Assembly (NCBI RefSeq): GCF_021134715.1
Contig: NC_060023.1
Coordinates: forward strand, 8,990,001 to 9,054,000
Length of the DNA stretch: 64,000 bases
Direction: 5' to 3'
DNA from: Daphnia pulex
Lineage: Eukaryota; Arthropoda; Branchiopoda; Diplostraca; Daphniidae
The translations under genes were made by a program, and so were the position numbers. Numbering within the stretch: the stretch's first letter is position 1; the number at the start of each line of letters is the position of its first letter. Below are positions 28,085 to 64,000 of the stretch, piece after piece. Below the pieces are notes generated by a model. That model was not told where the DNA came from. It ran no database searches and saw nothing but the letters and a program-made list of their open reading frames with translations.

Positions 28085-28150
28085 TGTTGCAAGAAGAGTT
28101 GCTCTGGAAATACAGACAGCAAGTGGTACCGTTCTGTCGATTTTCACTGT

Positions 28151-31024: not shown

Positions 31025-31090
31025 TATTGCAAGAAGAGTTGCTCTGGAAATACAGACAGCAAGTGGTGCCGTTCTGTCGATTTTCGCTCT

Positions 31091-31169
31091 CTTTTATACT
31101 CAATCCAGTCCGAAGACTGAACTATTGGAACATGGAACTATCAATTTCATCCAAACTCCGGCCTACGTG
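31091..31169 (-). promoter_or_regulatory. Promoter of hemoglobin 8: TATA box and TACGTG
   Basis: TATAAAAG (31091-31098) and TACGTG (31164-31169), 140 bp upstream; nearly the same sequence as the promoter of hemoglobin 6. Confidence 0.78.
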
Positions 31170-33723: not shown

Positions 33724-33780
33724 GTTGCAATTGTCTTCTGAAAATATCAGACTGATGCTCTTGGATTCGCGCGATGTTCC

Positions 33781-42174: not shown

Positions 42175-43679
<1,505 letters not shown>

Positions 43680-43801: not shown

Positions 43802-44927
43802 TTAAAACCCATATTTTGCTTGTGTTTGTCGTTTCGTGGATTTGTTTTGAGCCCATTGGTTTTTAAGATCAACCTCACGAGCTTTTGCTTGGGCAGCCAA
43901 GTAAGTGATTTGATGCTTCTTCTTTTGTAGCTTGTTGTAGGCTATATCTGGACCTCTACTAGCAGACTTTTCTTCAGAAATTGCCTTCAAATATGACATG
44001 TTGGGATCATACGTCAAACGCTCTCCTTGAATATCTATAATTTGTGCATCATCTGGTAATTTGCGTTTGACTCCAGAGGAACCCTGAAGTGCCTGTAACT
44101 ATTAGGCAAAAAACAATTAAATCTTCTACCAGATTTTTATATGAACAAGTACATACTGCAACATGGTCAAGTTCCAATCCAGCATATTCTGTTTGGTAAG
44201 TGTCTGAAATTCCAGCCATGTTATACTGCTGATTGGTAGGCATGCTAGGGTAAGCTGGTTCAGCTTGTTGGCCTGTTGAACTGATTGTTTGGAAGACTGG
44301 CCCAACATCCATTGGTTCTGCCTGCACTTTTAAGGCTGGCTCATCCATTGTAAAGAAGCTGTCAGATACATCCTCATCATCAGAATCTTTCTTGGAAGAC
44401 TGCTGTCTAGCAACAGACTGAGGAATAAGAGGGGTACTTTTCTTCATCAGGGGTTTCGCAACTGGTTTTGCGATTTCTGAAGGAGGCTCATGATGTGAAT
44501 TTTTTGGAGGTGGTAGTTTGGAGAATAGTTTGGATTGTCCTACAGCAAGTGGTTTGTCTATTTTCTTAATTTTTTTTGTTTCTGTATCATCTTCCAGCTA
44601 AATGAGAAAAACATCAGTGTAATGGAAACAAAATTAGATATAAATGGAACTTACATCAGCTAGTGACGGTATGCCAATTACAATTTTTCCATTCTTTCTT
44701 TGGCTTATAATTGATAGTAGCTCAGATTTCTTCAAATTTGCTTTTTCTTTACTAGCAAGCTCTGCTAGTTTGAGTTCTTTTTCGGAAGGTTTTGGTATAT
44801 CATCTAAATCTTCACGAATGCTCCCATGTTCATTTTTGTATTTAGAGAAAACTATTGCAGGCGATTGATCCATTTCTTCATCGGATTCACTGCCACTTTC
44901 ATCATATGCCACCAAATTTAACGCCAT
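43802..44927 (-). CDS. PRCC: PRCC family protein (proline-rich, mitotic checkpoint/splicing-associated)
   Basis: Three exons, 44655-44927, 44157-44597 and 43802-44098, give 336 residues. The N-terminus MALNLVAYDESGSESDEE and the C-terminal block KKHQITYLAAQAKAREVDLKNQW, then RRQTQAKYGF-like SxKRQTQAKYGF, are the conserved ends of PRCC. In vertebrates PRCC is nuclear and associated with splicing factors and MAD2B. The middle is Pro/Ser/Gln-rich and poorly conserved, as usual. The gene is convergent with the GGTase gene, with 122 bp between stop codons. Confidence 0.93.
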
Positions 44928-45060
44928 TGTGTTGATTATGAAGAAATGTTTAAAACAAAATTACAAATAGTTCTGCTTGTTGACTTATTGTGACTGCTCT
45001 CTGTAATTTGTAAGGCCGACTAACTCTGTCTTGTCCGTGCGACTGACGAACTGTCACTGT

Positions 45061-45860
45061 GCATCTAACTTAAGATTCAAAACTCATTAGTAGATGTCGC
45101 CACTATCGCCCTTGTTGTTCCTGAACCGTGAAATGAGAGGAAATGAGAAATGAGCGAAACAAATTGTTGCTAATTCCTGTGATTTCAAATACCAAATTGA
45201 ACTTCGTATCTTATGTAGGTTTATCTTGACCTATTTTTCTTATTTTTACACTGTATCAACTTATTTCTTCAAATTCTAGATGCATACTGTATTACTGTAC
45301 TGTGTACTGCCACCAACAAGTTGACTTAGTGCTCAGTCACTTTCTGACTTTCCATCTATTAGACCCTCATGCTGTCAAAAGCCTAAAACTCATGTTTGAA
45401 GCACACATATAGTGGAATACTAATGTACCGAGATAAGGTATTTGCACTTTACTGCTACAAGACCATTACATTTCAGATTTTCTTATAACATAGGTATCCT
45501 TGCTCATGAACCACAGCATCTTTTCTGAATCTTGCATATTTGGTGGCGTACCCTGCAACAGCATGTTTGTTGTTATGGCTGTTTTTACTTCGGTTTAGAA
45601 GGCAACCCAGCTAAGAGTTAGTAGAGTTTTATTTTTTATAGGTAAATTTGTGTAAATTTGGAAATAGAGAGAGAATTTTCAATTTCCTTGTCCCATTGCT
45701 GCTTAGAGTTTCAGTGACATGAAGAGTGTGAAGTGAATAACCTGCACTGTGTATGTACATGTACCAGATCTGTACATGAAAACATGTATGTACATGAGGA
45801 CAGATATATAACAGCTAATAGGAAATAATTTTATTTTTTAAATCCATATAGCCAATAATC
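45061..45860 (+). repeat. Block X: third copy of the palindrome's inner sequence
   Basis: This PRCC upstream flank is homologous, in the same orientation, to about 54552-55200 of the right arm and, inverted, to about 53900-54500 of the left arm. Shared words include ATTCAAAACTCATTAG/ACCCATTACTAG, CAAATACCAAATTGAACTTC, CTCATGCTGTCAAAAGCC and GTACCCTGCAACAGCATG. By eye it is clearly diverged, with many substitutions and small indels. Confidence 0.75.
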
Positions 45861-45879
45861 ATTTTATTCTTTCCTACAG

Positions 45880-46033
45880 ATGTGCATAAACGAAAGTTAT
45901 GAATTTCGTTTTGGGGTCAATGGAGTTGGCGCTGGTTGCCGTTACTGGCCTTATGCGACGTCTCGATATCAGTTTGGAATAATAGCTCTGGACTCTGAGG
46001 AATCCTCACTCATACTACTATACGATCATACAG
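45880..46033 (+). other. Possible orphan exon
   Basis: A 154-bp stretch is open in one frame from ATG (MCINESYEFRFGVNGVGAG...) and is bounded by a good acceptor (TTTCCTACAG) and donor (CAG/GTAACG). I do not recognise the peptide. It lies just outside the left end of the palindrome, downstream of block X. It may be a remnant exon or chance. Confidence 0.35.
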
Positions 46034-46389
46034 GTAACGTAACCTAGCAGTCAACATAAGCGAGGAGTTTTAGATTCATTACATTTTTTGCATGTTTTCG
46101 TTTTGTTTTTTTGCATGCAAGTCAACCTGTAGACAGGTCGACCAGTTTGTCTTCTCGATTGAAGGTCACGAGAAACATTACATAAAACTGGCATGCGGTT
46201 GTGTAGAGGTTGGGTGAGAATGACACGTGTTTCATCATTATCAAAGCAGGTACAATATCCGCAAGGGTAAGCTTTTTGGTATTCATTTTGATATTGGTTT
46301 TTGTAGACCCATCCCCAGCAACGTCTACCTAAAGAAAGAAAGGCCAGTTTGCATTTCAATCGAAGGTCATGGAGATCATTAAGTAAAAC

Positions 46390-46560
46390 GTGTCATGCAG
46401 TGGCGTAGAGGTTGGGTGAGAACGGGACGTTTTGTATCATTATCAAGAAGGTAAAATAACCGCAAGGCTTAATAGGAGGGGTGAGAAAAAGTCGTATAAA
46501 AGGCGAGAGAAAAGTCGATAGGGCTCAGTCGAGCGAGTATCTCCGACACGGTAAGAGCTG
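46390..46560 (+). promoter_or_regulatory. Promoter module of the Tyr/Thr-repeat genes (left, outer)
   Basis: A conserved block (GTAGAGGTTGGGTGAGAAC, CATTATCAAGAAGGTA, CCGCAAGGCTTAATAGG) is followed by TATAAAAGG at 46495-46503 and the motif ATCTCCGACACGGTAA. The block recurs at 49560-49745 and, partly, at 46170-46280, and is mirrored in the right arm. Confidence 0.65.
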
Positions 46561-46972
46561 CTGTGCATTATTTGCTATCAGCTGCAATCTTCGTCGTATT
46601 GTCAGTTAATTTTCAGTAAAGTAAATTATTTCAGTAAATTTTCTGTTGTTCCATGGAGTTATGTATCAAATTTCAATTTTTTCTCTTTGTTAATATGCTA
46701 GTTATTTTTGCATATTATTTTTAAATTATTTATTGTCTAGTCGTATGTAAGGGCAAAGAAAAGGCGAAAGAAATCAGTCGAGTGAATATTTCCGATATAC
46801 AAGAGCTAAAGTGCACCATGTGTCACCAACTGCATTCTTCGTCGCGCTACCAGTTTCAATCATGGGTGAATATTCTGTTTTTTTGTATGGAAAGTTTTAT
46901 TCTATTTTTATTTCAATTTGCTATTAGCCAGTTATTGTTGAATAATAATGTTTGAATTTAATAATTGTCTAG

Positions 46973-47246
46973 TAAACTGTGCTGTTGTTGGGTGTTGTAT
47001 CGTTGATAGCTGGGTCGACCACTGGTGTACCGATGATTCTTGGGTGTGGCGGATACCAAAGCACTACACTGCCGCCTTACTACACAACATACAACACAAC
47101 CAGTTGCTACACCAATGCCTTAAATACTACTCCACCAAAGAACCAGAGTGTTACACAACTACAAATGCCGCGCCAGCTTATTACACCGAGGCTCCCTAAC
47201 ACAACACCACCAAGGCATCGGAGTACTACACCACTACATATCATGG
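46973..47246 (+). pseudogene. Tyr/Thr-repeat gene copy 1 (left), frameshifted
   Basis: After a TGTCTAG acceptor the frame begins with a hydrophobic leader (VLLLGVVSLIAGSTTGVP) and YYTTYNTT, then shifts: the repeat register continues in another frame as YYSTKEPECYTTTNAAPAYY, followed by a stop in TEAP-TAA before NTTKASEYYTTTYHG. The family motif is YYT(T/E)xxPxYY. The same frameshift is in the mirror copy at 60863-61135, so the break predates the arm duplication or was spread by conversion. Confidence 0.75.
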
Positions 47247-47524
47247 GTAAGTATTATGTTATGTGGAGTTTTAATATGCCAACTGCTAAAAACAAAAATT
47301 CTTTATCGTCTATTCGTATGAAAGGAGAGAAAAGGTGAAAAAATTAAGCAGCCTAGTGAGCATCTCCGTTATGGCAATAGGAACTGCCGTGCACTATTTG
47401 TCAACAACTTCATTCTTCATCGAATTCCAAGTTTTAAATTAAGGTAAAAAAATTTCCATAGAGTTGTGAATCAACTCTACTTTTTTTCTATTTGTTGTTA
47501 TACCAGTGCCATAGTTGAAAATTG

Positions 47525-49111
47525 ATGTTAAAATTTATTAATCGTCTAGTAAACTATGGCGTCGTGCTGCTGTTGGGTGTTGAATCGTTGATGGTTGTTG
47601 GTTCATCCATGGTGTACCGATATCTCCAGGGTATGGTGGGTACCAACAACAACACCACGAAGGCAGCGGAGTACTACACCACGAAGGCAGCGGAGTACTA
47701 CACCACGAAGGCAGCGGAGTACTACACCACGAAGGCAGCGGAGTACTACACCACGAAGGCAGCGGAGTACTACACCACGAAGGCAGCGGAGTACTACACC
47801 ACGAAGGCAGCGGAGTACTACACCACGAAGGCAGCGGAGTACTACACCACGAAGGCAGCGGAGTACTACACCACGAAGGCAGCGGAGTACTACACCACGA
47901 AGGCAGCGGAGTACTACACCACGAAGGCAGCGGAGTACTACACCACGAAGGCAGCGGAGTACTACACCACGAAGGCAGCGGAGTACTACACCACGAAGGC
48001 AGCGGAGTACTACACCACGAAGGCAGCGGAGTACTACACCACGAAGGCAGCGGAGTACTACACCACGAAGGCAGCGGAGTACTACACCACGAAGGCAGCG
48101 GAGTACTACACCACGAAGGCAGCGGAGTACTACACCACGAAGGCAGCGGAGTACTACACCACGAAGGCAGCGGAGTACTACACCACGAAGGCAGCGGAGT
48201 ACTACACCACGAAGGCAGCGGAGTACTACACCACGAAGGCAGCGGAGTACTACACCACGAAGGCAGCGGAGTACTACACCACGAAGGCAGCGGAGTACTA
48301 CACCACGAAGGCAGCGGAGTACTACACCACGAAGGCAGCGGAGTACTACACCACGAAGGCAGCGGAGTACTACACCACGAAGGCAGCGGAGTACTACACC
48401 ACGAAGGCAGCGGAGTACTACACCACGAAGGCAGCGGAGTACTACACCACGAAGGCAGCGGAGTACTACACCACGAAGGCAGCGGAGTACTACACCACGA
48501 AGGCAGCGGAGTACTACACCACGAAGGCAGCGGAGTACTACACCACGAAGGCAGCGGAGTACTACACCACGAAGGCAGCGGAGTACTACACCACGAAGGC
48601 AGCGGAGTACTACACCACGAAGGCAGCGGAGTACTACACCACGAAGGCAGCGGAGTACTACACCACGAAGGCAGCGGAGTACTACACCACGAAGGCAGCG
48701 GAGTACTACACCACGAAGGCAGCGGAGTACTACACCACGAAGGCAGCGGAGTACTACACCACGAAGGCAGCGGAGTACTACACCACGAAGGCAGCGGAGT
48801 ACTACACCACGAAGGCAGCGGAGTACTACACCACGAAGGCAGCGGAGTACTACACCACGAAGGCAGCGGAGTACTACACCACGAAGGCAGCGGAGTACTA
48901 CACCACGAAGGCAGCGGAGTACTACACCACGAAGGCAGCGGAGTACTACACCACGAAGGCAGCGGAGTACTACACCACGAAGGCAGCGGAGTACTACACC
49001 ACGAAGGCAGCGGAGTACTACACCACGAAGGCAGCGGAGTACTACACCACGAAGGCAGCGGAGTATTACACAACTACGTATGCAGCGCCAGCTTACTACA
49101 GCGTCGTATAA
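47525..49111 (+). CDS. Tyr/Thr-repeat protein with 59 octapeptide repeats
   Basis: From the ATG at 47525 the frame runs 528 codons. A hydrophobic leader (NYGVVLLLGVESLMVVG) is followed by YRYLQGMVGTNNN, 59 copies of TTKAAEYY, and a short tail TTTYAAPAYYSVV. The leader suggests secretion; a Tyr/Thr-rich repeat protein of this kind would suit an extracellular fibre, cuticle or adhesive role, but no function is known. A splice acceptor TGTCTAG at 47550 fits the family, yet the usual upstream ATG exon is degraded here (TTTTAAATTAAG at about 47437), so the start is uncertain. The mirror copy is broken, leaving this as the only long open member. It could also be an expressed-looking accident of a minisatellite. 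Confidence 0.55.
   Translation: MLKFINRLVNYGVVLLLGVESLMVVGSSMVYRYLQGMVGTNNNTTKAAEYYTTKAAEYYTTKAAEYYTTKAAEYYTTKAAEYYTTKAAEYYTTKAAEYYTTKAAEYYTTKAAEYYTTKAAEYYTTKAAEYYTTKAAEYYTTKAAEYYTTKAAEYYTTKAAEYYTTKAAEYYTTKAAEYYTTKAAEYYTTKAAEYYTTKAAEYYTTKAAEYYTTKAAEYYTTKAAEYYTTKAAEYYTTKAAEYYTTKAAEYYTTKAAEYYTTKAAEYYTTKAAEYYTTKAAEYYTTKAAEYYTTKAAEYYTTKAAEYYTTKAAEYYTTKAAEYYTTKAAEYYTTKAAEYYTTKAAEYYTTKAAEYYTTKAAEYYTTKAAEYYTTKAAEYYTTKAAEYYTTKAAEYYTTKAAEYYTTKAAEYYTTKAAEYYTTKAAEYYTTKAAEYYTTKAAEYYTTKAAEYYTTKAAEYYTTKAAEYYTTKAAEYYTTKAAEYYTTKAAEYYTTKAAEYYTTKAAEYYTTKAAEYYTTTYAAPAYYSVV
47654..49069 (+). repeat. 24-bp coding minisatellite, 59 units
   Basis: 59 units of 24 bp (1416 bp), each encoding TTKAAEYY, run without a visible difference except TAT for TAC in the last unit. 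The length equals exactly 59 periods. No frame is broken across the array. Confidence 0.97.
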
Positions 49112-49559
49112 AAGGAGAGAGAAGAGTCAAATGAAATCAGTCGATGTAGCATCTCCGACACGGTAACATCTGTTGTGAATTATTTGTCACAACCTGCATT
49201 TTTCGTCTGTTATGGGTTATGGGTAAATATTCTTTTTTTTTTCATGGAGTCTTGTAGTGTATGTATGTATGTAATGTATGCCATTATTTTCTATTTCTAA
49301 CATGCCAATTATTTAATATTAATGTTAAAATTATTTTTGTCTAGTCGTATTAAAGGAGACAACAGGTGATCATCTCCGACATGGCAATAACTGCGGTGCA
49401 CTATTCGTTACCAACTGCATTCTTCGTCGTACCACCAGTTTGCTTTCATGGGTAAATATTCTTTTTTCTACATGGAGTTGTGAAATGTGAATCAATTCTT
49501 TTTATTTGTTTTTGTCAGTTATAATCGAAAAAATTCGTTGTTCACGCTTGTAGTTCACA

Positions 49560-49745
49560 AGAAACGTTTCGTAAAACTGGCATGCGGTGGTGTAGAGGTT
49601 AGGTGAGAACCGGACGTTTTGCATCATTATCAAAAAGGTACAATAGCCGCAAGGCTCAAGAGGTGGATCAGGTTGAGAAAAAGTTGTGTAAAAGGAGAGA
49701 GAAACGGGTACAGAAATCAGTTGAGCGAGTATGTCCGACACGGCA
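49560..49745 (+). promoter_or_regulatory. Promoter module of the Tyr/Thr-repeat genes (left, inner)
   Basis: Contains GTAGAGGTTAGGTGAGAAC, CATTATCAAAAAGGTA, CCGCAAGGCTCAAGAGG and GAGCGAGTATGTCCGACACGG. The TATA position reads TGTAAAAGG here, while the mirror copy at 59361 keeps TATAAAAGG, so this copy may be weakened. Confidence 0.6.
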
Positions 49746-49766
49746 ACAGCAACTGCAGTGCACAAT

Positions 49767-50218
49767 ATGTCAGGAACTGCCTTCTTCGTCGCTTTACTGT
49801 CCTCAATTATGGTCAAATATTTATATAGAGAGTTGTGTATCAACTCTACATTTTTTTTCCTGTTTGTTAACATGCCAGTTTTTATTGAATGCTAATGTTT
49901 AAATTAATTAATTGTCTAGTAAAATATCGTGCTGCTGCTGCTATCGTCGTCGTGCTGATGTTGGGTGTCGTATTGGCTCGGTCAACCACTGGTGTACTGA
50001 TGTCTTTTGGGTATGGTGGTTATGAAACCGCAACGCCGCACGTTACTACACCGAGACCCCCAAGTACTTCACCACCAAGTCTCCAGATTATTACACCACA
50101 ACTTCGCTGCCCGAGCTACTACACCAAATCCCCGAAGTACTATTCTTCCCCGAGGTACGCCATTAAAGGGTCGAGTACTACACCGAGGCCCCTATTTACT
50201 ACACCACTACATATCATG
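49767..50218 (+). pseudogene. Tyr/Thr-repeat gene copy 3 (left), probably broken
   Basis: Exon 1 from 49767 reads MSGTAFFVALLSSIM, a plausible signal start. Exon 2 (49920-50218) reads YRAAAAIVVVLMLGVVLARSTTGVLMSFGYGGY, then runs out of the repeat register (TTPRPPSTSPPS) while the true register (RYYTETPKYFTTKSPDYYTTT) is in another frame, and later returns to YYTKSPKYYSS. Several indels are therefore present, and the two exons do not join without a stop at the acceptor. Confidence 0.65.
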
Positions 50219-50544
50219 GTAAATATTCTGTTACATGGAATTTAAAATGCGAATATCCAAATTATTTATTGTCTAGTCGGAGGAAGACGATGGAGAGAAG
50301 GTATTGTCTAGTCGAGGTAGAAGGAGAGAAGGCGATAGATATCAGTCGAATGGTTATCACCGGCATGGCAACAACTATAGTGCAGTAGTCGTCATTAACT
50401 GCGTTCTTCGTCGTACCACCAGTTTTGCAATCATTGGTAAATATTTTTTTTTTTTGTGGAGGTGTGAATCAGCTCTGCGTGTTGTATTTTTTAATATGCC
50501 AGTTATTATTGCATATGTTTCAATTTAATTATTGTTTCGTATAG

Positions 50545-50830
50545 ATGGCTGGATTGACAGCTGGTGTGCCGATGTCTCCTGGGTATGGCGGGTATCAAAC
50601 CACGACGCCGCCGTCTTACTATGGAACATCAACATACGACACGACCAGTTATTACACCGAGGCCCCCAAGTACTACACCACCGAGGAACCATAGTGTTAC
50701 ACAACTACAAATGCCGCGCCAGCTTATTACACCGAGATCCCAAGTACTACTCTGCTCCCAGCTACTACACCGAGGTTCCAGCTTATTACACCACTAAAAC
50801 AGTCGAATACTACATTAAAGTAATCATTGG
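50545..50830 (+). pseudogene. Tyr/Thr-repeat gene copy 4 (left), truncated at codon 50
   Basis: MAGLTAGVPMSPGYGGYQTT starts at 50545 right after a TATAG acceptor and continues SYYTEAPKYYTTEEP before a TAG at 50692; the homologous codon elsewhere is GAG (Glu). Beyond it the register continues (CYTTTNAAPAYYTEI), then shifts frame to PKYYSAPSYYTEVPAYYTT. A 49-residue product is possible but looks like a nonsense remnant. Confidence 0.65.
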
Positions 50831-50972
50831 TAAATATGAATTTTTTTTCATTGAGATGTGTATCAACTGTACTTATTATTTTAAAATGGTAGTTATTATT
50901 GCATATAAATGTTCAAATTATTTTTATTGTTTAGTTATCTATGGCGTGCTGCTGTTGGGTGTTTAATCGTTG

Positions 50973-51690
50973 ATGGCTGGATTGACAGCTGGTGTGCCGA
51001 TGTCTCCTGGGTATGGCGGGTATCAAACCACAACGCCGGCGTCTGACTGCACGCCAACATACGGAACGACCAGTTACTACACTGAGGCCTCCATGTACTA
51101 CACCACCAATGTTCCAGATTGTTATACAAAAACATAAGCTTTCTCGAGTTACTACGCAGAAGCCCCGAAGTATTATTCTACCCCGAGCTCTATCACCAAG
51201 TCACCGGAGTATTACACAACTACGTATGCAGCGCCAGCTTACTACACCGAGGCTACCAAATACTACTCTGCTCTTAACTACTGCACCGAGGCTCTAGCTT
51301 ATCACACCACCAACGGTCGAAATCTACACAGAAGTGCCAAAGTACTACTCTGTCCCGAGCTACACATTTCTAACTGAGGCGGCCAAGTATTACGTTTCCT
51401 TAATTAACCAACCGCTGCCCCTTCGTATTATGCTGAACCGAAATACTACACTGAAGCCCCAGTTTACTACACCACAACCTACGCTACACTCTGCTACTAC
51501 ACCGAAGCTCTGAAGTAGTACACTACGAAGGGACCTGAGTTCTAAGCCACTAAATACGATGCTCCGACCTGCTACACCGAAGCTCTTAAGTATTACTCTG
51601 TTCCAAGTTATTACACCACTATGTGATCTGAATGTTACACCACGACCTACGCTTCTCCAGATAACTCCAAAGAGGCTTCTAAATACTAGA
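50973..51690 (+). pseudogene. Tyr/Thr-repeat gene copy 5 (left), multiply interrupted
   Basis: Starts MAGLTAGVPMSPGYGGYQTT at 50973 and stops after 54 codons (TAA at 51135). Downstream about 550 bp still show YYAEAPKYYS, SPEYYTTTYAAPAYYTEA, EAPVYYTTTYAT and YYSVPSYYTT in changing frames with several stops (for example LKxYTTKGPEF). This was once a much longer protein and shows the ancestral repeat types. An AATAAA lies shortly after the end (about 51748). Confidence 0.7.
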
Positions 51691-52108
51691 TCTGAAATTG
51701 TTTTTCATGTGTTTTCACTGAGAATTCCTGTTGGTGTTGAATGAGAAAATAAATTTTTATGCGGGTAAACATCTTGTAAAACTTCACTTAAATCCTTCAA
51801 GCCTTTTGCCATTGCGAAGTGTTCTCATTGTTTTAGATCTTTCCTAATTAACTTATGTCTGAAAACTCTGCTAAACAACATTCTGAAGTGGACGAATTTC
51901 ATTATCAGGTCAAGTTACGAGAGAAACGTACTGCGTTCTCTAAATTTTCATCGATGTTTACTGTAAGCAAGTCTTGAGATAAATGATGTAATATATTACA
52001 AGACACAATGAACAAATACTTAAAAAGGAATTGCTATTTTGTCCCACCTCCACCCACAATTCCACCACATTTTACAATCACATACATAAATACATACACT
52101 TAAGTTAA

Positions 52109-52370
52109 CCCATTGGCTGCCACGCCATACAACCCGTAGGTTGCTCTCTACTACTCTACGCGTCACGTCTGAAGGATCCATGACCAAGTGGGACTTGCCA
52201 TTGCTGACAAGTCCGTGCTGACAAGGGGGGGACTAAGGTGCATTGCCTTTTGACAGGCTTGCCTTGCGGCAAATTTTGGGCTTGGCGACTCTCCGACCTC
52301 GCGGCTTGTAAGCCACGAGACCGAACAGCGCGGCCCGTGCAGGGGAGAAAAAGGTGTGGCAGCCAATGGG
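52109..52370. mobile_element. TTAA-flanked MITE, piggyBac-like (left arm)
   Basis: 262 bp with 15-bp terminal inverted repeats CCCATTGGCTGCCAC, flanked on both sides by TTAA (52105-52108 and 52371-52374). A TTAA target duplication and ends beginning CCC are hallmarks of the piggyBac superfamily. It has no transposase and is GC-richer than its surroundings. Confidence 0.82.
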
Positions 52371-52374
52371 TTAA

Positions 52375-52575
52375 CTAACACAAACACAAACGCAATAATA
52401 CCAACAATACGATGATCCACGTTGATGACGAGTCTCGGTGTCGGTCGCGATTCCACCGAGTTTCGTTCGCACCAGGAGCAGGGGCAACGTCCGACGGAGA
52501 CCGTTGACGACTGTTAAAGATGAGAAAATCCTCTTCTCGACGTCTCCTCTGCATTACCTGAATAAAGACAAACAT
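52375..52575 (-). other. Small open frame next to the MITE (left arm)
   Basis: 66 codons: an Arg/Ser-rich stretch (QRRRREEDFLIFNSRQRSPS) and a hydrophobic tail (WIIVLLVLLRLCLC). A splice acceptor (TTTATTCAG) precedes the internal Met. The stop lies against the TTAA of the MITE, so the end was probably altered by the insertion. Not recognised; mirrored at 56480-56680. Confidence 0.3.
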
Positions 52576-52710
52576 TTCTTATTAAGTGACATGTCAATAA
52601 AAGTTACATAATACAAATAGGAACATTGATCATGTTTTTTAGCTCAAAGATTTAAAGATGCAATTTTTTACACTTAAAATCAAGCTTGCAATATTGAGAA
52701 CTGTAAACAG

Positions 52711-53099
52711 AACAAAGCTCACTTGCTAGTCTTTGGAAAAAATTCCGGAAGTAGACCGGAAGTAACCACAGCGCCTCAACCATTGAGCTGTCGTCAAATT
52801 AAACCACATATTCGTGATCTCCATGAAATTTGGGGTCGATTAGGTGTGATTTAAACGAAATCCAAAATTTGGCCAAAATCGAGAATTTTCCTGAACTATA
52901 GTTCAGGAAAATTTTCGAAACCGGAAGTACGAAAACGTAAAAAAGATAACATGAACTTTACCACAAATTTTACGAGGATCACGAATATGTGGTTCTTTTG
53001 CTCCTCAGATGAATATTTACTGAACTACTGACTGAAATGAGCAAACCGGAAGTAGAAAAAAAAAACTTATTATCAAAAATCTAACAAGTGAGCTTTGTT
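52711..53099. mobile_element. Fold-back element with 19-bp inverted ends (left arm)
   Basis: The ends AACAAAGCTCACTTGCTAG and the reverse of CTAACAAGTGAGCTTTGTT match at 18 of 19 positions. Inside are a second inverted pair (CACATATTCGTGATC near 52805 and its reverse near 52985) and a perfect 28-bp palindrome at 52885-52912, so the whole can fold into one long imperfect hairpin. Non-coding. Target duplication not clear. Confidence 0.65.
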
Positions 53100-53440
53100 G
53101 GAGGTCTAGTTATCGTCAGTTTCCACTAAAATTTTCCACACAACAGCTGCCGATAAATGTTTAAAGAGATTTTCAAAGTAACTGAAACTGACTGTTTTGA
53201 CAGCTGAAAATTATCGAAAAGCCATCTAGCGTTAGAAAAAAGAAACGTCTAAATAACACACTAAAACTTCTTTTACGCGCAAGAGGGGCCTGATTTTGGA
53301 ATTACTACACAGACAGAGAGTTTTACGCAAAAAGATAACTAGTAGATAATCTACGAAAATAATTCAATTGTCCGGTACCTGGCCATAATCCCGTGGTGAG
53401 TGACTGCACACTGCAGGTGTGTAACAGCGGACGGAAGCGA

Positions 53441-53626
53441 TCACTGAAGTGATCCAGAAACTCGCCAAGTCGCCAGTGAAGTAAAACCAATTGTGTTTAG
53501 AAGCAGTGAAACTAGATGAGCGTGCGTCGCGAAGATAAGGATGGAGAAGAACGTTGATGGAAATCCCTCTTCCGTCATGGTCAGCATTGGCTCAAGAATC
53601 TCCGTGCCAGGACCACACGATTCCAT
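53441..53626 (-). other. Small unrecognised open frame (left arm)
   Basis: 61 codons starting MESCGPGTEILEPMLTMTEE, mirrored exactly in the right arm. An acceptor (TTTTACAG) lies upstream of the Met and a CAG/GTACCGG donor about 60 bp after the stop, so this may be an exon of a spliced, perhaps non-coding, transcript. No family recognised. Confidence 0.3.
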
Positions 53627-54537
53627 AAAGAAACTGCGTGCTCTGTAAAATAAAATGTTTTACATTAATAAAAATATAACAAAGAATAAAGCATTTCAAT
53701 CTTTACCTATTTTAAGAAGCACACTGATTGTTCATGATGAAAAACCGTGAAAATGGAATTCACTGCAACCAACAGCATTACTCCACATGTTGAGATCAAT
53801 TTCCTGATGCTAAAGAAAGTGTCATGAAGAATTGTAACTGAGCTTGGTGATAGGTGGTATTGATGTTTACCTTTATCATGCGGGTGATGAATTTAGTAAG
53901 GCATTTGACTTTCATAAAGCAGATCCGGTATATGTGCAATACACATGGCAGGCTATTCACTCCCACTCTTCACGTCACTGAAACTCTAAGTAGCAAAGGG
54001 ACAAGGAAATTCTCTACATTATTTACAAATAGACATAAATTTACTTATGAGAAATAAAACTGTACCTTTCTCTTCTTCTTGCATTCTTAACAGAAGTAAA
54101 AACATCCACAACAACAAACATGCAGTTGCAGCTAGGTACACCACCAAAATTGTGAGATTCAGAAAAGATCCTATGGTTCAAGAATACCTATGTTACATGA
54201 AAATCTGAATTGTAATGGTCTGGTAGCAGTAATTGGAAAATACCTTATCTCTGTACATTTGTATTCCACTACATGTGGGCTTCAAACATGAGTTTTTGGC
54301 TTTTGAAATCATGAGGGTCTAATCCGATGGAAAGTGACTGAGTGCTAAGTCAACATGTTGGAATGACTGACAGTATTCATCTAGAATTTGGAGAAATAAG
54401 TTGGTACAGTATAAAAATAAGGAATAAACTATGCCAAGATAAACCTACATAAGTTACGAAGTTCAATTTAGTATATGAAATCACAGGAAGCACAGGAGCC
54501 TCGTTTCACGCTGTAACAACAACAAACGCGACACTAG

Positions 54538-54585
54538 CCCCATCGTGTTACCTACTTAGGATTCAAAACCCATTACTAGATGTCG
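54538..54585. other. Centre of the palindrome
   Basis: About 50 bp between GCCTCGTTTCACGCTGTAAC (left, 54498) and its reverse complement ending near 54625. It contains ATTCAAAACCCATTACTAG, also found in block X. Confidence 0.7.
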
Positions 54586-55424
54586 CTAGTGTCGCCTTTG
54601 TTGTTGTTACAGCGTGAAACGAGGCAAAAAAGGCGAAACAAATTGTAGCTAATTAATACTTTAATATTCCTGTGATATCAAATACCAAATTGAACTTCGT
54701 AGCTTATGTAGGTTAATCTTGACCTAGTTTCCTTATTTTTATACTGTACTAACTCATTTCTTCAAATTCTAGATGCATACTGTCAGTCATTCCAACAGGT
54801 TGACTTATCGCTCAGTCAATTTCCATCCATTAGATCCTCATGCTGTCAAAAGCCTAAAACTCATGTTTGAAGCACACATATAGTGGAATACAAATGTGCA
54901 GAGATAAGGTATTCCCCCATTACTGCTACCAGACCATTACAATTCAGATTTTCATGTAACATAGGTATTCTTGAACCATAGGATCTTTTATGAATCTCGC
55001 AATTTTGGTGGTGTACCCTGCAACAGCATGTTTGTTGTCATGGCTGTTTTTACTTCTGATTAGAAGGCAACCCAGCTAAGACATAGGTACAGTTTTATTT
55101 CTCATAGGTAAATTTGTGTAAATTTGTAAATAACGTAGAGAAATTCCTTGTCCCATTCCCACTTATAGTTTCAGTGACATGAAGAGTGTGAAGTGAACCA
55201 CCTATCACCATGCTACTGCAATACTTCATGAACCTTTCTTGAGCATGGAAATTGATCTCAACATGTGGAGTAATGCTGTTGGTTGCAGTGAATTCCATTT
55301 TCACGGTTTTTCATCATGAACAATCAGTGTGCTTCTTAAAATAGGTAAAGATTGAAATGCTTTATTCTTTGTTATATTTTTATTAATGTAAAACATTTTA
55401 TTTTACAGAGCACGCAGTTTCTTT

Positions 55425-55610
55425 ATGGAATCGTGTGGTCCTGGCACGGAGATTCTTGAGCCAATGCTGACCATGACGGAAGAGGGATTTCCATCAACGT
55501 TCTTCTCCATCCTTATCTTCGCGACGCACGCTCATCTAGTTTCACTGCTTCTAAACACAATTGGTTTTACTTCACTGGCGACTTGGCGAGTTTCTGGATC
55601 ACTTCAGTGA
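55425..55610 (+). other. Small unrecognised open frame (right arm mirror)
   Basis: Same 61 residues as the left-arm frame at 53441-53626; acceptor TTTTACAG at about 55400-55408. Confidence 0.3.
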
Positions 55611-55951
55611 TCGCTTCCGTCCGCTGTTACACACCTGCAGTGTGCAGTCACTCACCACGGGATTATGGCCAGGTACCGGACAATTGAATTATTTTCGTAG
55701 ATTATCTACTAGTTATCTTTTTGCGTAAAACTCTCTGTCTGTGTAGTAATTCCAAAATCAGGCCCCTCTTGCGCGTAAAAGAAGTTTTAGTGTGTTATTT
55801 AGACGTTTCTTTTTTCTAACGCTAGATGGCTTTTCGATAATTTTCAGCTGTCAAAACAGTCAGTTTCAGTTACTTTGAAAATCTCTTTAAACATTTATCG
55901 GCAGCTGTTGTGTGGAAAATTTTAGTGGAAACTGACGATAACTAGACCTCC

Positions 55952-56344
55952 AACAAAGCTCACTTGTTAGATTTTTGATAATAAGTTTTTTTTTTCTACT
56001 TCCGGTTTGCTCATTTCAGTCAGTAGTTCAGTAAATATTCATCTGAGGAGCAAAAGAACCACATATTCGTGATCCTCGTAAAATTTGTGGTAAAGTTCAT
56101 GTTATCTTTTTTACGTTTTCGTACTTCCGGTTTCGAAAATTTTCCTGAACTATATATAGTTCAGGAAAATTCTCGATTTTGGCCAAATTTTGGATTTCGT
56201 TTAAATCACACCTAATCGACCCCAAATTTCATGGAGATCACGAATATGTGGTTTAATTTGACGACAGCTCAATGGTTGAGGCGCTGTGGTTACTTCCGGT
56301 CTACTTCCGGAATTTTTTCCAAAGACTAGCAAGTGAGCTTTGTT
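55952..56344. mobile_element. Fold-back element (right arm copy)
   Basis: Mirror of 52711-53099, four bases longer because its central palindrome reads GAACTATATATAGTTC instead of GAACTATAGTTC. Confidence 0.65.
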
Positions 56345-56479
56345 CTGTTTACAGTTCTCAATATTGCAAGCTTGATTTTAAGTGTAAAAAATTGCATCTT
56401 TAAATCTTTGAGCTAAAAAACATGATCAATGTTCCTATTTGTATTATGTAACTTTTATTGACATGTCACTTAATAAGAA

Positions 56480-56680
56480 ATGTTTGTCTTTATTCAGGTA
56501 ATGCAGAGGAGACGTCGAGAAGAGGATTTTCTCATCTTTAACAGTCGTCAACGGTCTCCGTCGGACGTTGCCCCTGCTCCTGGTGCGAACGAAACTCGGT
56601 GGAATCGCGACCGACACCGAGACTCGTCATCAACGTGGATCATCGTATTGTTGGTATTATTGCGTTTGTGTTTGTGTTAG
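56480..56680 (+). other. Small open frame next to the MITE (right arm mirror)
   Basis: Identical in sequence to the left-arm frame at 52375-52575, ending at the TTAA of the MITE. Confidence 0.3.
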
Positions 56681-56684
56681 TTAA

Positions 56685-56946
56685 CCCATTGGCTGCCACA
56701 CCTTTTTCTCCCCTGCACGGGCCGCGCTGTTCGGTCTCGTGGCTTACAAGCCGCGAGGTCGGAGAGTCGCCAAGCCCAAAATTTGCCGCAAGGCAAGCCT
56801 GTCAAAAGGCAATGCTCCTTAGTCCCCCCCTTGTCAGCACGGACTTGTCAGCAATGGCAAGTCCCACTTGGTCATGGATCCTTCAGACGTGACGCGTAGA
56901 GTAGTAGAGAGCAACCTACGGGTTGTATGGCGTGGCAGCCAATGGG
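56685..56946. mobile_element. TTAA-flanked MITE, piggyBac-like (right arm copy)
   Basis: Mirror of 52109-52370: 262 bp, the same 15-bp inverted ends, TTAA at 56681-56684 and 56947-56950. Its presence at the same place in both arms means it inserted before the palindrome formed or was copied by conversion. Confidence 0.82.
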
Positions 56947-57364
56947 TTAACTTAAGTGTATGTATTTATGTATGTGATTGTAAAATGTGGTGGAATTGTG
57001 GGTGGAGGTGGGACAAAATAGCAATTCCTTTTTAAGTATTTGTTCATTGTGTCTTGTAATATATTACATCATTTATCTCAAGACTTGCTTACAGTAAACA
57101 TCGATGAAAATTTAGAGAACGCAGTACGTTTCTCTCGTAACTTGACCTGATAATGAAATTCGTCCACTTCAGAATGTTGTTTAGCAGAGTTTTCAGACAT
57201 AAGTTAATTAGGAAAGATCTAAAACAATGAGAACACTTCGCAATGGCAAAAGGCTTGAAGGATTTAAGTGAAGTTTTACAAGATGTTTACCCGCATAAAA
57301 ATTTATTTTCTCATTCAACACCAACAGGAATTCTCAGTGAAAACACATGAAAAACAATTTCAGA

Positions 57365-58082
57365 TCTAGTATTTAGAAGCCTCTTTGGAGTTATCTGGAG
57401 AAGCGTAGGTCGTGGTGTAACATTCAGATCACATAGTGGTGTAATAACTTGGAACAGAGTAATACTTAAGAGCTTCGGTGTAGCAGGTCGGAGCATCGTA
57501 TTTAGTGGCATAGAACTCAGGTCCCTTCGTAGTGTACTACTTCAGAGCTTCGGTGTAGTAGCAGAGTGTAGCGTAGGTTGTGGTGTAGTAAACTGGGGCT
57601 TCAGTGTAGTATTTCGGTTCAGCATAATACGAAGGGGCAGCGGTTGGTTAATTAAGGAAACGTAATACTTGGCCGCCTCAGTTAGAAATGTGTAGCTCGG
57701 GACAGAGTAGTACTTTGGCACTTCTGTGTAGATTTCGACCGTTGGTGGTGTGATAAGCTAGAGCCTCGGTGCAGTAGTTAAGAGCAGAGTAGTATTTGGT
57801 AGCCTCGGTGTAGTAAGCTGGCGCTGCATACGTAGTTGTGTAATACTCCGGTGACTTGGTGATAGAGCTCGGGGTAGAATAATACTTCGGGGCTTCTGCG
57901 TAGTAACTCGAGAAAGCTTATGTTTTTGTATAACAATCTGGAACATTGGTGGTGTAGTACATGGAGGCCTCAGTGTAGTAACTGGTCGTTCCGTATGTTG
58001 GCGTGCAGTCAGACGCCGGCGTTATGGTTTGATACCCGCCATACCCAGGAGACATCGGCACACCAGCTGTCAATCCAGCCAT
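57365..58082 (-). pseudogene. Tyr/Thr-repeat gene copy 5 (right)
   Basis: Mirror of 50973-51690 with the same MAGLTAGVPMSPGYGGYQT start and the same early stop, plus single-base differences (for example ACC-ATA for ACC-ACA after the start block). Confidence 0.7.
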
Positions 58083-58224
58083 CAACGATTAAACACCCAA
58101 CAGCAGCACGCCATAGATAACTAAACAATAAAAATAATTTGAACATTTATATGCAATAATAACTACCATTTTAAAATAATAAGTACAGTTGATACACATC
58201 TCAATGAAAAAAAATTCATATTTA

Positions 58225-58510
58225 CCAATGATTACTTTAATGTAGTATTCGACTGTTTTAGTGGTGTAATAAGCTGGAACCTCGGTGTAGTAGCTGGGAG
58301 CAGAGTAGTACTTGGGATCTCGGTGTAATAAGCTGGCGCGGCATTTGTAGTTGTGTAACACTATGGTTCCTCGGTGGTGTAGTACTTGGGGGCCTCGGTG
58401 TAATAACTGGTCGTGTCGTATGTTGATGTTCCATAGTAAGACGGCGGCGTCGTGGTTTGATACCCGCCATACCCAGGAGACATCGGCACACCAGCTGTCA
58501 ATCCAGCCAT
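58225..58510 (-). pseudogene. Tyr/Thr-repeat gene copy 4 (right)
   Basis: Mirror of 50545-50830; the same TAG interrupts the frame after 49 codons. Confidence 0.65.
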
Positions 58511-58836
58511 CTATACGAAACAATAATTAAATTGAAACATATGCAATAATAACTGGCATATTAAAAAATACAACACGCAGAGCTGATTCACACCTCCACA
58601 AAAAAAAAAAATATTTACCAATGATTGCAAAACTGGTGGTACGACGAAGAACGCAGTTAATGACGACTACTGCACTATAGTTGTTGCCATGCCGGTGATA
58701 ACCATTCGACTGATATCTATCGCCTTCTCTCCTTCTACCTCGACTAGACAATACCTTCTCTCCATCGTCTTCCTCCGACTAGACAATAAATAATTTGGAT
58801 ATTCGCATTTTAAATTCCATGTAACAGAATATTTAC

Positions 58837-59288
58837 CATGATATGTAGTGGTGTAGTAAATAGGGGCCTCGGTGTAGTACTCGACCCTTTAATGGCGTAC
58901 CTCGGGGAAGAATAGTACTTCGGGGATTTGGTGTAGTAGCTCGGGCAGCGAAGTTGTGGTGTAATAATCTGGAGACTTGGTGGTGAAGTACTTGGGGGTC
59001 TCGGTGTAGTAACGTGCGGCGTTGCGATTTCATAACCACCATACCCAAAAGACATCAGTACACCAGTGGTTGACCGAGCCAATACGACACCCAACATCAG
59101 CACGACGACGATAGCAGCAGCAGCACGATATTTTACTAGACAATTAATTAATTTAAACATTAGCATTCAATAAAAACTGGCATGTTAACCAACAGGAAAA
59201 AAAATGTAGAGTTGATACACAACTCTATATATAAATATTTAACCATAATTGAGGACAGTAAAGCGACGAAGAAGGCAGTTCCTGACAT
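58837..59288 (-). pseudogene. Tyr/Thr-repeat gene copy 3 (right)
   Basis: Mirror of 49767-50218, one residue different (YEIATPHV for YETATPHV). The same loss of repeat register occurs. Confidence 0.65.
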
Positions 59289-59309
59289 ATTGTGCACTGC
59301 AGTTGCTGT

Positions 59310-59495
59310 TGCCGTGTCGGAGATACTCGCTCAACTGATTTCTGTACCCGTTTCTCTCTCCTTTTATACAACTTTTTCTCACCCTGATCCACCTCTTGAG
59401 CCTTGCGGCTATTGTACCTTTTTGATAATGATGCAAAACGTCCGGTTCTCACCTAACCTCTACACCACCGCATGCCAGTTGTACGAAACGTTTCT
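59310..59495 (-). promoter_or_regulatory. Promoter module of the Tyr/Thr-repeat genes (right, inner)
   Basis: Mirror of 49560-49745 but with an intact TATAAAAG (59361-59368). Confidence 0.62.
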
Positions 59496-59919
59496 TGTGA
59501 ACTACAAGCGTGAACAACGAATTTTTTCGATTGTAACTGACAAAATCAAATAAAAAGAATTGATTCACATTTCACAACTCCAAGTAGAAAAAAGAATATT
59601 TACCCATGAAAGCAAACTGGTGGTACGACGAAGAATGCAGTTGGTAACGAATAGTGCACCGCAGTTATTGCCATGTCGGAGATGATCACCTGTTGTCTCC
59701 TTTCAATACGACTAGACAATAAATAATTTAAACATTAATATTAAATAATTGGCATGTTAGAAATAGAAAAAAATGGCATACATTACATATACACTACATG
59801 ACTTCATGAAAAGAAAAGGAATATTTACCCATAACCATAACCCATAACTGACGAAAAATGCAGGTTGTGACAAATTCACTACAGATGTTACCGTGTCGGA
59901 GATGCTCCATCGACTGATT

Positions 59920-60563
59920 TCATTTGACTCTTCTCTCTCCTTTTATACGACGGTGTAGTAAGCTGGCGCTGCATACGTAGTTGTGTAATACTCCGGTGAC
60001 TTGGTGAATGGTGATAGAGCTCGAGCTCGGGGCCTTTGGAACAGCGTAGGATGTGGTGTAGTACTCCGCTGCCTTCGTGGTGTAGTACTCCGCTCCCTTC
60101 GTGGTGTAGTACTCCGCTCCCTTCGTGGTGTAGTACTCCGCTCCCTTCGTGGTGTAGTACTCCGCTCCCTTCGTGGTGTAGTACTCCGCTCCCTTCGTGG
60201 TGTAGTACTCCGCTCCCTTCGTGGTGTAGTACTCCGCTCCCTTCGTGGTGTAGTACTCCGCTCCCTTCGTGGTGTAGTACTCCGCTCCCTTCGTGGTGTA
60301 GTACTCCGCTCCCTTCGTGGTGTAGTACTCCGCTCCCTTCGTGGTGTAAGCTGGGGCGACGTAGGTTGTAGTGCAGTACTTGGGTGCTTCGGTGGAGTAA
60401 CAAGTCGATCCTCGGTGGTGTGGCACTTGCAGGCCTCAGTGTAGTAACAGGTTGTTGCGTATGTTGTTGTTGGTACACACCATACGCTGGAGATATCGGT
60501 ACACCATGGATTAACCTACCATCAACGATACAACACCCAACAGCGGCATGACGCCATAGTTTA
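59920..60563 (-). pseudogene. Short-array repeat gene (right counterpart of the 59-repeat gene)
   Basis: After the TGTCTAG acceptor the frame reads NYGVMPLLGVVSLMVG and hits a stop (GGT-TAA) where the left copy has GGTTCATCC. Downstream are YYTEACKC, then a shift, then TTYVAPAY, 11 units of TTKGAEYY, one TTKAAEYY and TTSYAVPKAPSSSS. A region of about 115 bp between NNN and the array, present here, is missing in the left copy. Not translatable as one protein from the family start. Confidence 0.75.
60058..60345 (-). repeat. 24-bp coding minisatellite, 12 units
   Basis: Twelve 24-bp units. Eleven encode TTKGAEYY (GGA codon); the twelfth, at the 3' end of the coding strand, encodes TTKAAEYY (GCA), the type that fills the left-arm array. 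Confidence 0.96.
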
Positions 60564-60862
60564 CTAGACAATTAATAAATTTTAACATTTCCAATTATGG
60601 TACTGGTATAATAACAAATAGAAAAAGGGAAGAGTTGATTCACAACTTAATCGAAATTTTTTTTTACCTTTATTTAAAACTCGGAATGCGACGAAGAATG
60701 AAGTTGTTGACAAACAGTGCACGGCAATTCCTAATGCCGTAACGGAGATGCTCACTCGGCTGCTGAATTCTTTCACCTTTTCTCTCCTTTCATACTAGAC
60801 AATAAATAATTTGTGTATTTAGTAGTTAGCATATTAAAACTCCACATAACAAAATACTTTCC

Positions 60863-61135
60863 CATGATATGTAGTGGTGTAGTACTCCGATGCCTTGGTG
60901 GTGTTGTGTTAGGGAGCCTCGGTGTAATAAGCTGGAGCGGCATTTGTAGTTGTGTAACACTCTGGTTCCTTGGTGGAGTAGTATTTAAGGCATTGGTGTA
61001 GCAACCGGTTGTGTTGTATGTTGTGTAGTAAGGCGGCAGTGAAGTGCTTTGGTATCCGCCACACCCAAGAATCATCGGTACACCAGTGGTCGACCCAGCT
61101 ATCAACGATACAACACCCAACAACAGCACAGTTTA
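60863..61135 (-). pseudogene. Tyr/Thr-repeat gene copy 1 (right)
   Basis: Mirror of 46973-47246 with the same frameshift and stop. The donor after TATCATGG reads GAAAG rather than GTAAG, so splicing is also lost. Confidence 0.72.
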
Positions 61136-61559
61136 CTAGACAATTATTAAATTCAAACATTATTATTCAACAATAACTGGCTAATAGCAAATTGAAATAA
61201 AAATAGAATAAAACTTTCCATACAAAAAACAGAATATTCACCCATGATTGAAACTGGTAGCGCGACGAAGAATGCAGTTGGTGACACATGGTACACTTTA
61301 GCTCTTGTATATCAGAAATATTCACTCGACTGATTTCTTTCGCCTTTTCTTTGCCCTTACATACGACTAGACAATAAATAATTTAAAAATAATATGCAAA
61401 AATAACTAGCATTTTAACAAAGAGAAAAAAATTGAAATTTGATACATAACTCCATGGAACAACAGAAAATTTACTGAAATAATTTACTTTACTGAAAATT
61501 AACTGACAATACGACGAAGATTGCAGCTAATAGCAAATAATGCACAGCAGCTCTTACCG

Positions 61560-61735
61560 TGTCGGAGATACTCGCTCGACTGATCCCTATCGACTTTTCT
61601 CTCGCCTTTTATACGACTTTTTCTCACCCCTCCTATTAAGCCTTGCGGTTATTTTACCTTCTTGATAATGATACAAAACGTCCCGTTCTCACCCAACCTC
61701 TACGCCACTGCATGACACGTTTTACTTAATGATCT
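61560..61735 (-). promoter_or_regulatory. Promoter module of the Tyr/Thr-repeat genes (right, outer)
   Basis: Mirror of 46390-46560; TATAAAAGG at 61605-61613 and the CGACACGG / GCAAGGCTTAATAGG blocks are kept. Confidence 0.65.
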
Positions 61736-61995
61736 CCATGACCTTCGATTGAAATGCAAACTGGCCTTTCCTTCTTAAGGTAGACGTTGCTGGGGATGGG
61801 TCTACAAAAAGAAAACCAATATCAAAATGAATACCAAATACCTTACCCTTGCGGCTATTGTACCTGCTTTGATAATGATGAAACACGTGTCATTCTCACC
61901 CAACCTCTACACTACCGCATGCCAGTTTTACGTAATGTTTCTCGTGACCTTCAAGCGAGAAGGCCAAGCAAACTGTTCGTCCCGTCTGCAGCTTG

Positions 61996-63200
61996 AAATC
62001 TACAATAGTAATTGAAAATGATAAACACTGCATCAATGGAACATTTTTAAAATATACCTAGATTTGACTTAAGACATTATAAAGTCACGTGCGAGTGTAC
62101 ACATAGAAAAAATAGTTGAAATGATACGAAACTCCATGTAAAAAAAAAAAAAAAAAAAAAACGAAACTTTTACTCATTATTGCGAGTCGGAAGAATGCAG
62201 ATGATGGCTTGACTTTCGTCATCGGTAACTTTCTGTAAACCAGGCCTACAAATTGTATGAACGGAGTAAAGTTGAATTTAGCGGTTACTTAAATAGTTAA
62301 ATTTGTAGAGATTTCACAGAGTCGAAGGGTAAACAAGCATACCAAATTTTAAAAAATGGGGTAAAGATGAAAATTCAATCACATAAAATCACATCTTAAG
62401 ATGTTACGTAAAATTACACAAAAATTAAACAAAGGAATCTACTCTCTGCTCTTCAATCACTGACATTTACAGCTTGCTTTAAAGGAAATTAATAAACACG
62501 ATTACTTTTTTGTCAAGTTTTTTTCTGGTTTCTGGAAAATGAACAGTAGTCAAGCTTTGAGATCAGATGATTAGGCCAGTGGAATTTAGATTACAGGAAT
62601 AGCTAATTCACAGGTAAAGCAAGTGAAGATAAACAAAAAAGCAATTCATCATCTTTCTTCAAAAGGCTTCAGCACTACCTTTTTGACTGATTCTTAAGTT
62701 AACATTTCTAGCCATGTATTTTAAAAACCAAGTAATTCTAATCACCAAGACAATGTTCCTGTACAAACCACATGTCCAAAGAAGGTGAAGAAGGTAAGAA
62801 AATAACTGTAGATTCACTAACACCAGAGAAAACAACACCTTTCACCATCTGCACATTGAGCAGCAAACACTATCATTCACAGCATCAGCATCAGCATCAG
62901 CGAACAACAACAAATTAATCTATAACTTTAGACAATTAAAGGAAAAAGATAGCTTCAGCTTTGGAAATACACAGTAGTTACAAAATGACTAAGCATGCTA
63001 ATGACTTCTTTTTTGTTAAACATTTTTTTTTTTGTCAAAATTTTACAACCAGCGTAAATCATCAACACAACCAAGTGTAGTTGAAACAAAGTGAAACTGG
63101 ATGAAAATGTAATGAACTATCCAACATGGACTATATTTAATTAGACTAATACAACAACTTAATTTATAAAACAAATATCATAACTAGTTAGTATAGTTAC
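61996..63200. other. AT-rich region right of the palindrome
   Basis: Contains a poly-A run (about 62140-62160) and a short CAGCAT repeat near 62885. It may be the 3' UTR of a minus-strand gene starting beyond the window, but no coding sequence supports that. Confidence 0.35.
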
Positions 63201-63300
63201 CATTCAATGAAGTTTCTAGTACGAGACGACATTTCAGCATACGGACAGCACTTTCAGCTGCTTTCAGGACATATGCTCGGACGACATACTGGGAGTGGGA
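63201..63300 (-). other. Possible coding exon of a gene continuing past the window
   Basis: On the minus strand 100 bp are open (SHSQYVVRAYVLKAAESAVRM...LETSLNG) between an acceptor (AATTTCAG) and a donor (GTAACT). The composition looks protein-like but I do not recognise it, and no partner exon is visible. Confidence 0.3.
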
Positions 63301-64000
63301 CTGAAATTGCAGGCATAATAACCTTTATATCCACACACGAATACAAGAATATATCTAATTCATATACACAATGGCATTCATGAATAAAAACAAAAAATAC
63401 CTCTCTGTCTTAACGATAGAAAATGTTGAAGTTCGCTGTCATGACTAATACGGGAACATATAGCGGTCAAACGACTTCTAACCCCACCTTTTGACAAAAA
63501 TTCTAACCCTAACCTTTTGTCATTTGATTTGACGGTAATTCTAATCTACCTACCTTCCTTTTGACAAAAAACTTTAAAACCTTCAACAACCACTTGTAAT
63601 CTTGATCCATCGGTGAAACTGAGAAGAGATTGCTGAAATCCAAAACTGCTTTCCACGGGAAACGGATTTCAATTTGAAACGGGCAACGGGGCAAACAGAC
63701 TTGTAAACTAACTAACTATTGTAAACAATGTTCTGTGACAAGTTTATAAGAAGAAACACTATTAAATATTTGCCTACTAAGGAACTTTGATAAATTAGTA
63801 CAAAAAAATGGATCTATTAAAAATAATCGAAATTCTTGAGAAACAAAAACAACAAAAAATATTTGCAAAAGAGAATTCAACGTTTAGTGTTTATAACACA
63901 AAAGAAACATTTCCCATTTCCAAAGGAAAATTATAATTTTTCAATTTCAGAAAATCTAGTCACTTAAAAAAATCTTTCCTTTACTCTAATTGAACAGGAT
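63301..64000. other. Window end, nothing recognised
   Basis: AT-rich; a 61-codon minus-strand frame at 63509-63694 has no supporting motif. Confidence 0.35.

Follow-up and report, generated by a model that had tools for sequence, protein, structure and literature searches.

A 64,000-nucleotide stretch of the Daphnia pulex genome (assembly GCF_021134715.1, contig NC_060023.1, positions 8,990,001 to 9,054,000 of the forward strand; hereafter the window) contains a long palindrome at 46122-61996 whose two arms are a mosaic of near-identical and strongly diverged segments. This palindrome is probably the outcome of one old inverted duplication, with a background divergence of about 10%, that was later patched by gene conversion between the arms; the mosaic can be read directly from the alignment of the arms, and we infer conversion as its cause. 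Self-alignment, proposed as a check by an initial annotation of the window, recovered the inverted arms as the one dominant inverted structure present and bore out their claimed position and lengths (about 8.4 and 7.4 kb). The left arm (46122-54561, forward strand) and the right arm (54562-61996, reverse strand) are connected by three main collinear matches: 46122-48066 with 60053-61996 (92.5% identity, gaps counted, extending into an array of 24-bp units), 48707-53858 with 55197-60348 (98.1% identity), and 53956-55197 inverted onto itself (82.7% identity). The symmetry stops at the flanks, where a comparison of 44900-46121 with 61997-64000 gave only short low-complexity matches (best E = 0.025), and the right flank gave a weak AT-rich match (53-55 bp, 76-77%) to both arms. 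As assembled, the structure consists of two collinear inverted arms with distinct outer flanks on one chromosome.

In an alignment that leaves out the 24-bp array and, at the axis, 54501-54639, 144 of 6821 sites are mismatched between the arms, and the differences are very unevenly spread. Penalised segmentation, reported here in left-arm coordinates with mismatches per sites, divided the alignment into the outermost segment (46122-46161, 7/40), an outer low-divergence tract (46162-47242, forward strand, 16/1080), a high-divergence block on the outer side of the 24-bp array (47243-47642, forward strand, 37/390), a segment from the array to 49867 (20/790, including 6 sites before the array), an inner near-identical tract (49868-53809, forward strand, 4/3940), and a block beside the axis (53810-54500, 60/581). 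This six-segment profile reached a log-likelihood of -542, compared with -698 for a single rate. Expressed as identity, the inner 3.9 kb stands at 99.9%, two further segments at 97.5-98.5%, and the blocks beside the axis and outside the array at about 90%; in the right arm, the identity profile places the near-identical tract at 55247-59154 (reverse strand), the mirror of 49901-53804. The identical runs observed include ones of 1570, 1002, 693, and 513 sites, whereas the longest identical run in 10,000 permutations of the mismatches was 675 sites (95% limit, 363). Both permutation and segmentation show that identity between the arms varies more along their length than plain divergence from a single duplication would allow. 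A uniform near-perfect palindrome was ruled out by the identity profile and the segmentation; the earlier description as near-perfect fits 49868-53809, about half of each arm, and does not fit elsewhere.

The best reading of the segments of lower divergence is that they are conversion tracts, formed at two or more different times. The inner tract (49.87-53.81 kb) would record very recent conversion between the arms, in one or more events, and the tracts at 46.16-47.24 and 49.08-49.87 kb would record older or weaker conversion. The high-divergence block outside the array is read as the background age of the duplication; its divergence is similar to that of the block beside the axis, as one age predicts. 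The initial annotation had argued for real arms from the differing arrays, the indels (insertions or deletions), and the unequal divergence; all three arguments hold, and the mosaic supports its proposal of real, unequally diverged arms subject to gene conversion.

An assembly artefact, whether reads or haplotypes were joined into a chimera or a foldback read entered the consensus, is unlikely. The inner 3.9 kb is indeed nearly as identical as a foldback read would make it, but a foldback copy predicts near-identity from the axis to the end of the read, whereas here the sequence next to the axis, like that of a block farther out, is only about 90% identical, in collinear order. Haplotypes are themselves collinear, so an ordinary join yields no inverted arms; furthermore, the flanks differ, and the arrays are set apart by about 47 units and by a variant fixed in their units. 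The differences between the arms comprise 144 substitutions (59 of them transitions) and 29 indels, and since only three of the latter are of homopolymer type, the profile is not that of one sequencing-error class. A local risk of artefact attaches to the inner 3.9 kb, which assembly or polishing might have over-homogenised.

A second alternative holds that the whole was duplicated long ago in inverted orientation and that the inner 3.9 kb was then re-copied by replacement, for example by break-induced replication. We consider this improbable, even though the inner tract has sharp edges at 49868 and 53809 with four mismatches between them, and foldback priming at breaks is, in the pertinent part of PMC10622511, a proposed route to inverted duplications. 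The older sequence on either side runs into the inner tract in unbroken order, with no length gained, such that an exact replacement of this kind would in effect be a long conversion; moreover, the presence of segments with 1.5% and 2.5% divergence points to several events.

Several points weigh against an old duplication patched by conversion. The same data both suggested the segments and served to fit them, and an over-collapsed consensus could inflate the identity of the inner tract. The physical reality of the palindrome is taken from one assembled sequence, and conversion may have run in either direction between the arms. The 9.5% block could owe its divergence to a locally high rate beside a mutable array instead of to age. 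The link between the array and the ends of the tracts is a single case, and divergence just inside the array is only about 5% (9 of 191 sites at 49100-49299). Finally, the frame calls for the repeat genes described below rest on the copies themselves rather than on an intact family member.

In the sequence of events that we favour, a single inverted duplication would have doubled a cluster of tyrosine/threonine-repeat genes that was in decay, together with two elements with terminal inverted repeats (TIRs) and a repeat, element E, with the fold at the edge of E, as collinearity suggests. The arms would then have drifted apart to about 10%, a level that the block next to the axis and the one outside the array still show. 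Inspection by eye places the fold axis in a loop at approximately 54545-54580, with a 41-bp stem carrying one mismatch on either side; this stem identity (1 mismatch in 41) is not significant against a background of 10% (approximately 0.07 by our own estimate). Folded as single-stranded DNA, 54440-54700 reached -75.6 kcal/mol (z = -16.25), which none of 200 shuffles equalled. Inverted 20-mer matches within 46122-61996 numbered 11,636, or 10,220 once both arrays were masked, against none in each of 20 mononucleotide shuffles and none in one stretch of the same size (20001-35875). The permutation, fold, and 20-mer controls ruled out the palindrome as a product of chance.

The axis coincides with the edge of element E, hinting at a repeat-promoted fold-back, and foldback priming could put an axis at a short inverted repeat. 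The self-alignment and the identity profile show E as a central inverted pair (53956-55197) with about 10-12% divergence between its halves; around the axis, E was seen to span 53910-55203. A third copy (45068-45781, forward strand) lies outside the palindrome, beside a PRCC-family gene. In a three-way alignment, the two halves at the axis differed from each other at 66 of 544 sites and from the third copy at 95 of 581 and 79 of 563 sites; because they differ less from each other than either does from the third copy, the halves are the closest pair among the three copies. Exon-like open stretches with splice-like ends were noted beside E, within 53461-53810 (mirrored in the right arm) and at 45881-46034. 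These stretches had no Pfam match and are possibly exons of a lost gene.

The two mobile elements described in the initial annotation are mirrored between the arms, as are its five repeat-gene copies. The first element (52105-52375, 271 bp; mirror at 56680-56950, one mismatch) has 24-nt TIRs that are 96% complementary, TTAA at both ends, and no transposase, as expected of a non-autonomous element of the piggyBac/TTAA type; the sole open reading frame (ORF) of at least 90 aa overlapping it (52163-52513) had no Pfam match. TTAA elements appear among those listed for D. pulex in the part of PMC2884549 that bears on them, and the likeness drawn here is one of type. The second is a TIR/foldback element (52711-53099; mirror at 55952-56344) with a nested 40-nt palindrome, which has no spacer and lies at 52879-52918. 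The single indel between 49901 and 53804, 4 bp that are extra in the right arm, falls at the centre of this palindrome. Both elements lie within the near-identical tract and so could either be older than the duplication or have passed from one arm to the other by later copying.

Most of the difference in arm length is due to the copy number of the 24-bp arrays. The left array (47652-49071, forward strand) has about 59 copies of a unit that reads KAAEYYTT in the frame of the YYTT repeats, and the right array (60053-60348, reverse strand) has about 12. In phase, 58 of the 59 counted units on the left are identical, whereas 11 of the 12 on the right carry a different base (KGAEYYTT), the unit at the 3' end being KAAEYYTT, the left type. 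Because both the copy number and the fixed unit differ, the arrays expanded and were homogenised independently of each other. The arrays sit between tracts of lower divergence, and their length mismatch of about 1.1 kb, as judged from this one case, may be a barrier to conversion at which the tracts could have been halted. We tentatively suggest, as a possibility and not as the expected outcome, that such a length-mismatched minisatellite splits the arms into separately converting blocks and that a relic palindrome can stay homogenised without selection. If this is true, conversion would be the default of close inverted copies, not an adaptation, in what is possibly a cyclical parthenogen.

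Palindromes are usually discussed as gene-protecting devices on non-recombining chromosomes. Three-frame translation of each arm revealed five gene copies composed of a hydrophobic leader and YYTT-type repeats, a family that presumably resembles repeat proteins of Daphnia. Copy 1 (left, 46974-47242, forward strand; right, 60870-61136, reverse strand; boundaries by eye) has its YYTT frame interrupted in both arms by a stop and by changes of frame. Copy 2 on the left (47519-49111, forward strand) has the sole long open frame, 530 codons from stop to stop and mostly array, and in its right counterpart (59943-60571, reverse strand) the leader frame contains a stop and frame changes precede the array. 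Copy 3 (49920-50222, forward strand; mirror at 58833-59135, one mismatch) has a leader open for 118 codons that is out of the YYTT frame; copy 4 (50545-50830, forward strand; mirror at 58225-58510, no mismatches) has an in-frame stop and a frame change; and copy 5 (50940-51690, forward strand; mirror at 57365-58115, two mismatches) has many stops, one of which is confined to the left arm (51543-51545, TAA against TAT on the right). Copies 1, 3, 4, and 5 are thus disrupted in both arms by a change of frame, a stop, or both, located either within the repeats or between them and the leader. In our own frame reading, a stop or frame change affects the repeat part of nine of the ten copies, and nearly all of these lesions are common to both arms. 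The frame change of copy 2 between the leader and a GVPISP-type motif is shared by the arms and lies within the 9.5% block, the least converted part, which places the onset of decay before the duplication or shortly after it.

That the palindrome preserves a working family of repeat-protein genes through conversion favoured by selection is very improbable. In copies 1 and 3 of both arms, the leader frame is open for 118-120 codons from stop to stop, mostly outside the YYTT frame, and left copy 2 keeps its 530 codons, but by our reading nine of the ten copies are broken between the leader and the YYTT repeats. The openness of left copy 2 is weak evidence because its bulk is the 24-bp unit, which is stop-free in five of six frames. 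Pfam gave no match above the curated cut-off for three sequences of the family, although such repeats need not be in Pfam, and the same held for all seven peptides or ORFs scanned from the arms and the left flank. Unusual splicing could rescue some copies. The frame reading yielded no set of intact genes in both arms: a functional family of five genes per arm is not supported, and the conversion-maintained gene family envisaged by the initial annotation was not borne out. The genes within the palindrome look mostly like broken relics. Since they appear mostly non-functional, homogenisation would probably be a neutral by-product of a close inverted copy and not the result of selection to protect proteins. 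A palindrome that seems homogenised although most of its genes look broken would be a natural control for conversion without selection.

Core promoters may survive. The motif TATAAAAGG and a TCAGTC/TGA motif keep a spacing of 30 nt at two sites in the left arm and three in the right, which would favour a working family. At 46495-46532 (forward strand; mirrored at 61576-61613) and at 49107-49144 (mirrored at 59910-59947), TATAAAAGG is followed by TCAGTCGA at this spacing. Mirroring of these TATA/initiator-like promoter modules, as initially described, holds at these two places, while the third (59331-59368), in which TATAAAAGG stands 30 nt from TCAGTTGA, has the exact TATAAAAGG on the right only. 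Near 49687, the left arm reads tgtgtaaaagg at the corresponding position, a possible promoter difference. Two patterns aimed at the repeat-gene family or the TTAA element gave no matches in viral contigs, and a pattern scan of genome contigs returned 48 stretches with no confirmed relative, in viral and prokaryotic collections where absence says little.

The closest precedent that we found is the set of long inverted repeats of Caenorhabditis elegans, C. briggsae, and C. remanei. According to the relevant passages of PMC1803023, their arms are more alike within than between species, from which active maintenance was inferred by the authors. The Daphnia palindrome is likewise an invertebrate inverted repeat with arms more alike than expected; in contrast, the repeats of PMC1803023, as described there, carry paralogous gene pairs (e.g., the HSP16 locus) and were compared across three species, whereas the Daphnia copies look mostly broken and come from one genome. 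In the human Y palindrome P6, conversion tracts average 2068 bp, with a maximum above 9 kb, in the figures drawn from PMC3723533, a scale that matches the inner 3.9-kb tract, and there too inverted arms are homogenised by conversion. The P6 arms are about 0.02% diverged throughout and flank a unique spacer of about 46 kb (PMC3723533, same part), unlike the patchy arms of about 8 kb with hardly any spacer described here. Eleven palindromic gene blocks have been reported in Folsomia candida, and Adineta vaga also has such blocks (as given in the corresponding parts of PMC5490193 and PMC7953838). These resemble the present case as palindromes with repeated genes in an arthropod and in parthenogens, one Folsomia block comprising 2 x 8 Dscam2 copies; they differ in having been found by gene collinearity, with a synonymous divergence of 0.2 for a Folsomia Dscam2 pair (PMC5490193, PMC7953838, as before). 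D. pulex itself, according to PMC7953838, was not amenable to the palindrome screen. Our title-level literature search, with most subscription journals outside its reach, found no title on this palindrome or on long palindromes in Daphnia.

The Daphnia palindrome is one of a known kind; less usual are its clear mosaic, its unequal arrays, and its mostly broken genes. The mosaic offers measurable tract edges, a background divergence, and, in the unequal array, a possible barrier. With such edges and such a background, clone resequencing could provide a direct measure of conversion. Annotating genes or mapping short reads in this region could, on the other hand, yield spurious repeat genes and distorted copy numbers.

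The remainder of the window includes about ten tandem copies of globin-gene size (6324-37125), which are 66-87% alike in pairwise self-alignment. One minus-strand ORF was scanned from each of two copies, and both match Pfam Globin (8.2e-11 and 4e-17), apparently as different domains of a two-domain globin. Two further minus-strand ORFs on each side of the globin cluster (2538-3113, 5177-5677, 38521-39102, and 40841-41314) look related to one another and have a common [E/D]EQRANxxRR motif. They may be of the DM4_12 type; the one scanned of the four (5177-5677) had no Pfam match above the cut-off. Across the window, Rfam gave no families at gathering scores, and ARAGORN found no tRNAs. Beside the third copy of element E, a minus-strand ORF at 43802-44098 matches PRCC (PF10253, E = 1.2e-21), and the ORF at 44634-44960 would be the 5' part of that gene. 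Pfam further identified a prenyltransferase-domain ORF at 42316-42729 and an IP_trans ORF at 610-1158.

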